The notes under the pieces were generated by a model. That model was not told the origin of the DNA and made no database searches. It worked only from the letters and a program-made list of their open reading frames with translations. A program made the position numbers and the translations under genes. Below, piece after piece: positions 2 through 63,998 of a stretch of DNA of 64,000 nt (position 1 is its first letter; every line of letters begins with the position of its first letter). Origin of the DNA: Massilia sp. 9096 (GTDB taxonomy: Bacteria; Pseudomonadota; Gammaproteobacteria; Burkholderiales; Burkholderiaceae_D); assembly GCF_000745265.1 (NCBI RefSeq), contig NZ_JQNN01000001.1, positions 434,001 to 498,000 of the forward strand, in the 5' to 3' direction.

Positions 2-1546
2 GCCTGGGCCGTGAGCCGCGACCCGGCCTGGCTGCGGACGCTGCACCACCAGCTGCGCAGCTGGCTCGACCAGTGCCCGCCCTTGACCGGCCCCAACTGG
101 ACCAGCTCGCTGGAACTGGGCATCCGCCTGATCAACTGGGCGCTGGTGTGGCAACTGATCGGCGGCGACGATGCGCACAAGGGCAGCGGCCTGTTCAGTG
201 GCGACGACGGCCAGCGCCTGCGCGCCGACTGGCTCGACTCGATCCACGCCCATTGCAGCGCGATCGCGCGCCACCTGTCGCGCCATTCGTCGGCCAACAA
301 CCACCTGATCGGCGAACTGGCCGGGCTGTACGTCGGCGCCTCGATCTGGCCATGCTGGAAGGCGTCCGGCGCCTGGCTGGAGCAGGCGCGGCGCGAACTC
401 GAACACGAAGCCCAGGCCCAGTTCTCGCGCGACGGCGTCAACCGCGAACAGGCGTTTGCCTACCACATCTTTTCCTGCGAATTCCTGTTCGTGGCCGGCC
501 TGGTCGGGCAAGCCTGCGGGCAGCCGTTCTCGCGCAGCTACTGGACCAGCCCGCAGCGCGCGCTGCGCTTCCTGCGTTCGGTGCGCGACGTCGGCGGCAA
601 CGTGCCGATGGTCGGCGACGCCGACGACGGCATCGTGTTCCGCCTCGACGCGTCCGGCTCGGACCGCGCCGCCCAGCTGCTGGCGCTGGGCGACGCGGTG
701 CTGCGCCGGATCGAGCCGCAGCACCCGGGCGTGCGCTGGCTGCTGCATGCGCTGCCGGGCCGGCGCCCCGAGGCCGATCCGCACGAGTCGGACACCGGCT
801 GGGCCTTCCCCGACGGCGGCTACCTGCTGTTCGGCGCCCATTTCGACGAGCCCGAGGAAATCAAGGGCATGGTCGATTGCGGCCCGCTCGGCTATCTCGG
901 CATCGCGGCGCACGCGCACGCGGACGCGCTGGCGCTCACGCTGTCGGTCGCCGGCGAGCCGTGCCTGGTCGATCCCGGCACCTATTCTTACTGGCAAGAA
1001 CACAAGTGGCGCGATTACTTCCGCGGCACCTCGGCGCACAACACGGTGCGCATCGACGGCCTCGACCAGTCGGTGCCCGGCGGACGCTTCATGTGGCTGA
1101 GGAAGGCCCGGGCAGCGATCGAGCGCATGCCGCAATCGCCGCAGGAATTCGATTTCCGCGGCTCGCACGATGGCTACATGCGCCTGGCCGATCCGGTGCG
1201 CCACCTGCGCAGCGTGCGCTTCGACGCCGCCACCTCGACGCTGACCGTGCGCGATGAGGTTGCAGCCAAGAAACCGCACCAGGTCGAGCTGTTCTGGCAT
1301 TTCGCGCCCGAGCTGTCGGTACGCCTGGACAGCGCCGGCCTGCACGTGCGCGGCAAGCGCTTCGCGCTGCAGATGCACGTGCAGGGCCATGATCTCAAGC
1401 TGGAACTGGTGCGCGCCAACGAAAATCCGCCGCTCGGCTGGTTCTCGCGGCGCTATGAAAGCCGCCAGCCGTGCGACGTTTTGAAGGTCAGCGCCGTATC
1501 GTCCGCCGTCCCAGTCGAGTGCAGGATTACAATAGCGATTATTTAA
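2..1546 (+). CDS. heparinase II/III family protein, 5' end cut by window edge
   Basis: C-terminal part of a heparinase II/III-type polysaccharide lyase, probably periplasmic or secreted, acting on acidic polysaccharide. The frame is open to the first base, and the text just after the first possible start (GTG at 11) already looks like the middle of the alpha-helical toroid domain, so the true start lies upstream. The C-terminal beta domain is clear: AHAHADALALTLSV followed by EPCLVDPGTYSY, a WRDYFRGTSAHNTV stretch, and a late FWHFAPE. These His/Tyr-rich blocks are typical of the family. It precedes wecB and other nucleotide-sugar genes, which fits a lyase that trims or recycles the exopolysaccharide made here. 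The substrate cannot be read from sequence. Confidence 0.85.
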   Translation, partial: AWAVSRDPAWLRTLHHQLRSWLDQCPPLTGPNWTSSLELGIRLINWALVWQLIGGDDAHKGSGLFSGDDGQRLRADWLDSIHAHCSAIARHLSRHSSANNHLIGELAGLYVGASIWPCWKASGAWLEQARRELEHEAQAQFSRDGVNREQAFAYHIFSCEFLFVAGLVGQACGQPFSRSYWTSPQRALRFLRSVRDVGGNVPMVGDADDGIVFRLDASGSDRAAQLLALGDAVLRRIEPQHPGVRWLLHALPGRRPEADPHESDTGWAFPDGGYLLFGAHFDEPEEIKGMVDCGPLGYLGIAAHAHADALALTLSVAGEPCLVDPGTYSYWQEHKWRDYFRGTSAHNTVRIDGLDQSVPGGRFMWLRKARAAIERMPQSPQEFDFRGSHDGYMRLADPVRHLRSVRFDAATSTLTVRDEVAAKKPHQVELFWHFAPELSVRLDSAGLHVRGKRFALQMHVQGHDLKLELVRANENPPLGWFSRRYESRQPCDVLKVSAVSSAVPVECRITIAII

Positions 1547-1565
1547 TGAAAACATTGCAAAAAAT

Positions 1566-1671
1566 CCTGCTGCGCGTTTCACTGTCGTGCGGGGGCGCCG
1601 AGCCCTGCGATGCGCGCTGTACCTCCGTACAGCTGCGCTTCCCGGCCAACATTGCCGCCGCTCGCGACGGT
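1566..1671 (+). repeat. dispersed intergenic repeat with hairpin, copy A
   Basis: Lies between the heparinase-like gene and wecB. Its core (1604-1671) aligns by hand at 58 of 69 columns with the minus strand of 62533-62601. A 13-base block, CCTGCTGCGCGTT, sits upstream in both copies. The core holds a perfect 7-bp stem GCTGTAC/GTACAGC (1616-1622 with 1627-1633); copy B has GCCGTAC/GTACGGC, a compensated base pair. Function unknown. Confidence 0.75.
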
Positions 1672-1711
1672 GTTGCAAGGTCTTTAATAATTACTAGGGA
1701 TTGTTTTTAAT

Positions 1712-62481: not shown

Positions 62482-62532
62482 ATTCCCTCTTGTTTTCGTT
62501 TGCACACACGCGACGTCTCGGGGCATCGAGAA

Positions 62533-62624
62533 ACCGTCGCGAGCGGCCGCAGATTTGGCCGAGAAGCGCAGCCGTACTTAGGGTACGGCGAGCATCGCAG
62601 GCCGAAGCTGCAACGCGCAGCAGG
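62533..62624 (-). repeat. dispersed intergenic repeat with hairpin, copy B
   Basis: Between cysN and cobA on the minus strand, in the same orientation relative to the downstream gene as copy A is to wecB. The core (62533-62601) matches 1604-1671 at 58 of 69 columns, and the outer block at 62612-62624 matches exactly. The hairpin GCCGTAC/GTACGGC (62583-62589 with 62571-62577) shows one compensated pair relative to copy A. Confidence 0.75.
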
Positions 62625-62639
62625 TTTATCGAGCCCCCA

Positions 62640-63998
62640 TCAGAGACGTATCATACCGGCGGCAACAGTCTGGTGGGTGATTTCATCGATCAGGATGAAT
62701 GCCCCCGTCGCACGGATCGCTTCATACGCATCCGCCGCCAGCGGCTGCTGCACCGTCAGCTCGATGCGCGCGATGTCGTTCAGCTTCAGGCCGGCGGCCG
62801 GATTGTCCGGCGTGCTGCGCTGCTGGGTGTTGACGTCGAGGATGCTCTGCACCGCCTTGACCTTGGCCATGGTCGACCGCGTGCCGTGCTTGATCCAGTA
62901 CTTGCGGCGCACGTCGAGCGGCTCGTCGGCCATCCAGCAGACGTCGGCCTGCACCTGCTTGAGCAGCGTCGCCGGTTGCTCCGCGCCCGCCAGCACGTCA
63001 CCGCGCGAGACGTCGACGTATTCGTTCAGCAGCAGCGTGATCGACTGTCCGGACACGGCGCTTTGCAGCTCGCCATCGAACGTATGGATCGCCTTGACGG
63101 TCGCCTCGACGCCGGACGGCTGCACCACCAGCTTGTCGCCGACCGATACCTTGCCCGACTCGATCCGCCCCATGTAGCCGCGGAAGTCGTTGGCCTCGTG
63201 GCCGTTGTGGCGCGCCACCAGCTGCACCGGAAAGCGGAACGGGGCGGTGTGCGCCTCGTCATACACCGAGATGCCTTCCAGCAGTTCGATCAGGGTCGGG
63301 CCTTCGTACCACGGCATGTTGTCGCCGCGCTCGACGACGTTGTCGCCGGCCAGCGCCGACAGCGGGATCGCGGTGATGTCGGTCAAGCCCAGGCTGCCGG
63401 CGAACTCGGTGTAGGCCGCGACGATGCGGTCGTACACGCTGCGGTCGTAGTTCACCAGGTCCATCTTGTTGACGGCGACGATCACGTGCTCGATCTGCAG
63501 CAGCTTGGCGATGGTCGAGTGGCGCTTGGTCTGCACCAGCAGTTCCACGGAACCGTCGCCGCTGTCTCCATCATTCAGCTTCACTTTCGACACGTCGACC
63601 AGGATGATGACCGCGTCGGCGGTCGAGGCGCCGGTCACCATGTTGCGGGTGTACTGCTCGTGCCCCGGCGTATCGGCGATGATGAACTTGCGCTTCGGCG
63701 TGGCGAAATAGCGGTAGGCGACGTCGATGGTGATGCCTTGCTCGCGCTCGGCTTCCAGGCCGTCGGTCAGCAGCGACAGGTCGATGGTGTCGCCGACGGT
63801 GCGCTTGTGCTTCGAGCGCGAGACGGCGGCCAGCTGGTCGGCGAAGATGCCTTTGCTGTCGAACAGCAGGCGGCCGATCAGCGTGCTCTTGCCGTCGTCG
63901 ACGGAGCCGGCGGTGATGAAGCGCAGCAGCGAGGCTTGCCCCGACTGGTCGGCGGCGTGGTTCAACTCGGTTTTATGTTCAGCGGTAGCGGCGTTCAT
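62640..63998 (-). CDS. cysN: sulfate adenylyltransferase subunit 1 (GTPase)
   Basis: GTPase subunit of ATP sulfurylase, driving sulfate activation to APS with CysD. 452 residues; the ATG is 2 bp from the right edge, so the gene appears complete. EF-Tu-like GTPase motifs: GSVDDGKST at 31-39 (P-loop), DTPGHEQYTRNM (G3), NKMDL (G4), followed by beta-barrel domains 2 and 3. The family-specific block LLFDSKGIFADQLAAVSRSKHKRTVGDTIDLSLLTDGLEAEREQGITIDVAYRYF, in blocks, is clear. CysC is not fused. CysD is expected just beyond the right edge. Confidence 0.96.
   Translation of the reverse strand: MNAATAEHKTELNHAADQSGQASLLRFITAGSVDDGKSTLIGRLLFDSKGIFADQLAAVSRSKHKRTVGDTIDLSLLTDGLEAEREQGITIDVAYRYFATPKRKFIIADTPGHEQYTRNMVTGASTADAVIILVDVSKVKLNDGDSGDGSVELLVQTKRHSTIAKLLQIEHVIVAVNKMDLVNYDRSVYDRIVAAYTEFAGSLGLTDITAIPLSALAGDNVVERGDNMPWYEGPTLIELLEGISVYDEAHTAPFRFPVQLVARHNGHEANDFRGYMGRIESGKVSVGDKLVVQPSGVEATVKAIHTFDGELQSAVSGQSITLLLNEYVDVSRGDVLAGAEQPATLLKQVQADVCWMADEPLDVRRKYWIKHGTRSTMAKVKAVQSILDVNTQQRSTPDNPAAGLKLNDIARIELTVQQPLAADAYEAIRATGAFILIDEITHQTVAAGMIRL

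Follow-up and report, generated by a model that had tools for sequence, protein, structure and literature searches.

A large REP-like family of long palindromes at gene ends in beta-proteobacteria, most likely non-autonomous mobile DNA

REPs are palindromes of 20-40 bp that, in the available part of the source, are placed mostly downstream of ORFs and near the 3' end of the upstream ORF (PMC3733652). For TnpA-REP/RAYT, the available text of a second source gives strand-specific recognition of single strands and, in E. coli, a need for mismatches in the stem (PMC8266576). These are the nearest known systems to an element that occurs twice in the window, a stretch of 64,000 nucleotides from Massilia sp. 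9096 (contig NZ_JQNN01000001.1, forward-strand positions 434,001 to 498,000; Table 1). A preliminary description, made from the letters alone, had reported a dispersed repeat with a covarying hairpin, and both copies are present as placed: its hand count of 58 matches in a 69-column core equals that of BLAST within the window (69 columns, 58 matches, 84.06% identity, E 2.4e-15), and the compensated pair is real, with GCTGTAC/GTACAGC in copy 1 and GCCGTAC/GTACGGC in copy 2. The boundaries given at that time hold for the cores but not for the whole elements, whose outer stem lies beyond them. Each copy has a stop codon upstream and a gene downstream and is oriented with transcription, also as described. 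Copy 1 is preceded by an ORF whose weak heparinase-like match falls below the cut-off and is followed by wecB (TIGR00236); copy 2 lies between cysN (TIGR02034) and cobA (TIGR01469). The flanks of the two copies are unlike each other, which contradicts a local duplication. Most likely, the element represents a new, large REP-like family of non-autonomous mobile DNA that is not described in the literature found; a literature search, subscription papers and supplements aside, returned no description of it, and exact motif strings matched only unrelated work.

Table 1. Features of the two element copies, in window positions.
Feature	Position	Strand	Basis
Copy 1, whole element	1545..1687	+	covariance model, G000:C1:435545-435687, 80.5 bits, E 2.6e-15
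Copy 1 core, span of the preliminary description	1566..1671	+	69 columns aligned with copy 2 at 84% identity; alignment
TAA, stop codon of the ORF before copy 1, at the element foot	1544..1546	+	sequence and gene calls
Copy 1, insert of ~15 nt, GGGGGCGCCGAG type, left arm	1588..1602	+	alignment of own copies
Copy 1, apical hairpin GCTGTAC-CTCC-GTACAGC	1616..1633	+	sequence; pair counts
Copy 2, whole element	62517..62642	-	covariance model, G000:C1:496517-496642, 131.9 bits, E 9.4e-28
Copy 2 core	62533..62624	-	sequence, BLAST, alignment
Stop codon TGA of cysN, immediately 5' of the copy 2 outer stem	62640..62642	-	sequence, gene calls, profile match
Copy 2, apical hairpin GCCGTAC-CCTAA-GTACGGC	62571..62589	-	sequence; pair counts

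Anatomy, copy number and distribution

The element is a single long imperfect palindrome, or hairpin, of ~125 bp. Its outer stem of ~16 bp, in which one position is usually unpaired, leads inwards to an internal loop of conserved sequence (CTRCTGCGCG / CGCTCGCKACGG). A variable middle stem separates this loop from another conserved one (TGCGATGCTC / TGCGCTTCTC), whose strands are near-direct repeats of each other, and the GYYGTAC hairpin is innermost. Inserts of ~13-15 nt occur in some aligned copies at either of two places; that of copy 1 is shared with three other aligned copies of the same genome (L028, L031 and L057). In sets of 93 and 60 copies, the outer arms pair at 0.66-0.92 as far as offset 11, except for the unpaired position (0.40-0.47). 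The values for the two sets are 0.71 and 0.67 at offset 12 and 0.35 and 0.48 at offset 13, with near-background pairing thereafter, and the ends of the element are therefore sharp. Since the scan pattern behind the set of 60 demanded the second loop and the hairpin, the conservation of these two parts is there by construction, and the first loop alone is independent evidence of conservation.

Several approaches locate further copies in the 5.7-Mb genome of Massilia sp. 9096, as the preliminary description had proposed to look for. With copy 2 as the query, BLAST scored 40 places of 92 candidates, and a hairpin pattern was found at 34 places as against none for the reversed control pattern. A covariance model, likewise suggested earlier, was built from 42 own copies (126 model positions) and gives 68 matches at E up to 1, of which 53 are full-length (E 2.6e-15 or better) and one is 110 nt long; the remainder comprise weak matches, shadows on the reverse strand and decayed forms of short length. 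Among the full-length matches copy 2 ranks 15th (131.9 bits) and copy 1, with a degenerate outer stem and one internal insert of ~15 nt, has the lowest score (80.5 bits). Several copies decay through inner deletions at short direct repeats: parts of the middle are missing and, by eye, several joints fall at internal repeats of GCTCGC or CTGCGCGT. At one own locus (L012:1264-1622), a copy from position 1497 starts 3 nt past the 5' end of a tRNA gene, the second of two, which is on the opposite strand.

The element has a patchy spread over many beta-proteobacteria, at dozens of sites per genome and with patchy copy number. Matches are present in 33 of 61 genomes (own and 60 relatives), namely in 30 of 37 at the genus level, with 0 to at least 57 matches each, and, weakly, in 3 of 24 from other families; seven members of the genus (G002, G004, G011, G015, G016, G026 and G030) have none under strict filters. 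Across the order, at least 55 of 399 Burkholderiales genomes and at least 32 of 158 genera are matched at E up to 1e-6, a lower bound because of strict filters and the scoring of eight candidates per genome. The exact core pattern occurs in at least 120 stretches of GTDB genomes; the 80 matches listed, all of whose loci are recovered by the covariance model (80/80), include Massilia, Janthinobacterium, Herbaspirillum, Ralstonia, Zoogloea, Uliginosibacterium, Chromobacterium and Solimonas, the last a gamma-proteobacterium. Two copies stand in direct tandem, spacer absent, in Solimonas marina (L129:3043-3296). With one copy as the query, BLAST returned no match in plasmids and phages. The viral contig IMGVR_UViG_3300042934_000269 (L484) carries an exact element core at 2503-2541, and this may be host DNA.

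Copies at dozens of sites bear out the earlier preference for a dispersed mobile or structural element. A gene-specific riboswitch is rejected: the neighbouring genes are unrelated, and Rfam gives no matches at the gathering score in the window and none over the element in seven loci at E up to 1.

Docking at stop codons, filled and empty sites

Whether copies are always intergenic and always sense-oriented had been raised at the outset. By the calls of a simple gene finder trained on the window, as distinct from curated annotation, no predicted gene overlaps any of the 42 own copies, of which 19 lie in sense-sense, 12 in antisense-antisense, 7 in convergent and 4 in divergent contexts. The orientation is biased and not constant: sense and antisense copies in tandem contexts number 19:12 in the own genome and 96:36 in a larger set of 228. 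This set, 173 copies from fetched genome loci (mostly of the own genus, some of Janthinobacterium and other Burkholderiales) and 55 from the GTDB scan, was limited to distinct copies whose core ends could be recognised and that had 250 nt or more of flanking sequence, those failing the motif or length filter having been dropped. Genes were called on both sides of 198 of the 228 copies (96 sense-sense, 36 antisense-antisense, 48 convergent and 18 divergent).

The copies dock at stop codons at the 3' ends of genes. Where the upstream gene is in sense (153 copies), its stop codon precedes the conserved CC, at which the outer stem has its foot, by 9-22 nt in 114 copies and by exactly 14-15 nt in 58; for antisense genes on the right, a stop codon at 9-22 nt is seen in 13 of 94. 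A rough null of uniform placement in the gap would expect 28.6 sense copies in this range, as against 103 of 133 observed. At L002, at L025 and in G012 at cysN, the predicted gene end is the TAA within the element's own ATAAACC. Such docking is unusual for a REP-like element, and with docking this sharp, the way in which a small mobile DNA chooses its target can be tested directly. Protein ends reading ITGRFG precede three copies with differing cores (L137, L158 and L168, two from Massilia and one from Herbaspirillum); this gene end, presumably that of pstB, is a recurrent site across genera.

Filled and empty sites reveal dispersal by insertion. For the cysN-cobA site, searched in 62 genomes, 3 of the 30 loci read hold the element (own genome, G033 and G012), in 3 a different palindrome occupies the same position and 24 have neither; the cysN copies of the own genome and G033 look like the same copy. 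The other palindrome, ~100 nt long with ends of the TTCCCGCG-AGGCGGGAA type, was read at L249, L251 and L258 (G034, G067 and G024), so that palindromic elements of unrelated kinds seem to be drawn to this gene end. The wecB site is filled in the own genome, and the element is absent from all 29 other loci read; it is the sole site with a possible duplication (TTTAAT), and over 210 copies no direct-repeat diagonal stands out as a consistent target-site duplication would. Three sites in one region were compared among 11 Janthinobacterium genomes, counting distinct sequences. The element occupies site A in 4 of 11 cases and site B in 3 of 10 (empty CATTAA|GGA.., filled CATTAA|element), and site C (n=11) holds an antisense copy in four cases, a sense copy behind the stop codon of the other gene in two and remnants or no copy in five, with flank identities of about 90-97% between filled and empty sites. 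When 41 own copies were compared with G033 and G012, seven had a same-site copy, often with a different stem and core, and one of the seven also in the opposite orientation. Insertion into a pre-existing hairpin is rejected for the cysN-cobA, wecB and Janthinobacterium B sites, where by eye the empty sequence holds no such hairpin, and is possible at Janthinobacterium site A and the L031 site, where some element-free sequences are GC-rich and partly palindromic.

The outer arms change largely independently of the core. Within three genomes (40, 27 and 22 copies), mean arm identity is 0.58-0.63 across bins of core identity, for example 0.63 at a core identity of at least 95% (8 pairs) and 0.58 at 70-80% (549 pairs); as it hardly tracks core identity, the arms are thus not simply carried along. 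Within one lineage, as among the Janthinobacterium copies, a weak arm consensus is seen, and fast compensated drift under a pairing constraint is therefore enough to explain the arms. The idea that arms are always rebuilt at insertion was rejected: the arm identities are suggestive of it, but the Janthinobacterium consensus fits fast compensated drift equally well.

Covariation and the folding strand

Covariation in the 42 own copies is above shuffled and slid controls: 86.5% of cells are paired as against 70.4% in shuffles, 277 cells are doubly changed as against 99.4, and only 29.5-41.0% of cells pair on sliding by 1-3 columns. The G-U pair is nearly absent (23 of about 1308 paired cells). 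Among 138 copies without large inserts, divided into two sets, A-C mismatches on the read strand outnumber G-U in the middle stem (57 vs 13 and 48 vs 5), in the hairpin (10 vs 1 and 4 vs 1) and in the outer stem (63 vs 27 and 47 vs 23), with the asymmetry reversed in a few columns. The 228 copies contain 462 A-C, 210 G-U and 639 other mismatches on the read strand, counts that, like the folding energies below, are not independent events as the copies share ancestry; counted by column, the asymmetry is weaker (21 to 10). It is present in every orientation class counted, with A-C:G-U ratios of 322:150 where the left gene is in sense, 48:25 for tandem antisense, 105:54 for convergent and 40:8 for divergent copies. 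Since A-C mismatches read as G-T in the complement, wobble seems to be tolerated on the bottom strand, the complement of the read strand, whichever direction transcription takes.

Predicted folding energies lean the same way. The bottom strand is the more stable by a mean of 5.8 kcal/mol and in 186 of 228 copies, as against 1.8 kcal/mol and 149 of 228 with shuffled letters, and with DNA folding parameters its advantage is 5.2 kcal/mol (shuffled 1.7); part of the difference is composition. The advantage is found in only 24 of the 36 tandem antisense copies, and the strands of the two window copies differ by only about 1 kcal/mol. The scarcity of G-U and the asymmetries of mismatch and energy towards the bottom strand fit a DNA hairpin better than RNA; in particular, A-C exceeding G-U on the read strand is an indication that its complement folds as DNA. 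The view that the covariation argues for an RNA is consequently not upheld, with G-U at 23 of ~1308 cells and A-C in excess in each orientation class, and the compensating arms resemble a trace of change guided by structure in DNA rather than RNA. By covariation alone the element would have been classed as RNA, which serves as a warning. Attenuation or processing is possible for individual sense copies.

Competing explanations and relation to known systems

The explanation that we consider probable is a family of non-autonomous REP/MITE-like mobile DNA elements, moved by some enzyme as the folded bottom strand and inserted at stop codons. Such an enzyme would act on the single strand complementary to the read strand, that is, the one that shows G-T where the read strand has A-C mismatches and whose loops are rich in purines; it would recognise both conserved loops and insert the element at or beside a stop codon without a consistent target duplication. 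The arms would need mainly to pair and so could drift fast with compensating changes, and any influence on host mRNA (3'-end protection, polarity) would be a secondary matter. That an enzyme moves the element, which strand is transferred and whether the host benefits are points of inference, and the excess of sense copies at stop codons is also compatible with selection for an mRNA function. A bolder reading than compensated drift, and one that we hold to be doubtful, is that the folded bottom strand is moved directly behind translation stops and that the outer arms of ~10 bp are rewritten at or after insertion by hairpin-templated copying. If true, such rewriting would keep core copies alike while making arms site-specific yet complementary.

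An RNA element of 3' UTRs that protects mRNA ends, sets operon polarity or ends transcription, with mobility accounting only for its spread, would agree with the stop codon at the stem foot in 114 of 153 sense copies and the 96:36 bias in tandem contexts, and runs of at least five T in the 8 nt after the right arm are also more frequent (15/173 and 4/55) than in the background (2/173 and 0/55). This reading is rather unlikely, given that 36 of 132 tandem copies are antisense, that G-U is nearly absent and that the asymmetry points to the antisense strand, sense copies included; the T tract is moreover absent from 209 of 228 copies, and an intrinsic terminator was rejected as its T run is found in only 19 of 228. 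A structural DNA site for a nucleoid protein, gyrase or a replication-related factor, spread long ago, immobile now and kept by selection at gene ends, is very improbable: its internal loops are conserved from Massilia to Solimonas, but seven genus members are without a match under strict filters, Janthinobacterium genomes with flank identities of about 90-97% differ in filled and empty sites, and syntenic sites hold different or, once, inverted copies.

An element of known REPIN/REP type, moved by a RAYT (a Y1 tyrosine transposase) since lost from the own genome, is improbable as well. The bottom strand does carry G[TC]AG and GT[AC]G near the two core feet, common but not invariant; Y1_Tnp profile matches, putative RAYTs, are found in 60 of 62 genus genomes; and REPs likewise lie near ORF 3' ends in the available part of the source (PMC3733652). 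Against it, Y1_Tnp, the sole transposase family searched, has no match in the own genome with its 53 copies, while the seven element-free congeners named above have 1-4 each; none of the eight Y1_Tnp loci read holds the element (best match E 0.37); the tags are in direct and not in inverted order; and the length is 125 bp as against 20-40. Near the Y1_Tnp gene of G011, two very weak adjacent model matches (L480:2971-3157) are probably due to chance. By eye, no transposase was recognised beside the copies in the 25 largest groups of 841 predicted neighbouring proteins.

Among known systems, attC sites of integrons are imperfect palindromes used as the folded bottom strand. The element would resemble them in both respects and differs in being dispersed and at stop codons, and the letters of the attC core sites (R boxes) were not seen by eye at its ends. 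With bacterial MITEs and the enterobacterial RU elements, in the available text, it shares a size of the 100-170 bp class, intergenic location and high copy number (PMC2759123); it differs in that its ends preserve their pairing better than their sequence, with arms that pair but differ between copies, in the lack of a consistent target-site duplication over 210 copies and in that no parent insertion sequence was seen beside the element loci read. The Burkholderiales-1 motif comes from the same order and is a candidate structured sequence of doubtful nature; the element could be the same thing, as compared by description only with the available part of a source that bears no Rfam accession (PMC2864571). 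From the GTAG REPs and TnpA-REP (RAYT), the element is set apart by ~125 bp as against 20-40 bp, by two conserved internal loops, by outer arms that change between copies with compensation and by the absence of a Y1_Tnp match in its own genome, and from REPINs, which are two REPs in inverted order, by tags in the same orientation on one strand. Preferred as mobile DNA, it would add to the REP-like elements a large family across many beta-proteobacterial genera, with 53 copies in a Y1-transposase-free genome. What it has in common with GTAG REPs, on the available parts of the two sources, is that palindromes are dispersed, for the most part behind coding regions, with mismatches in the stem and probably a strand-specific fold as DNA; a GTAG-like tag is common in the element but not invariant (PMC3733652, PMC8266576).
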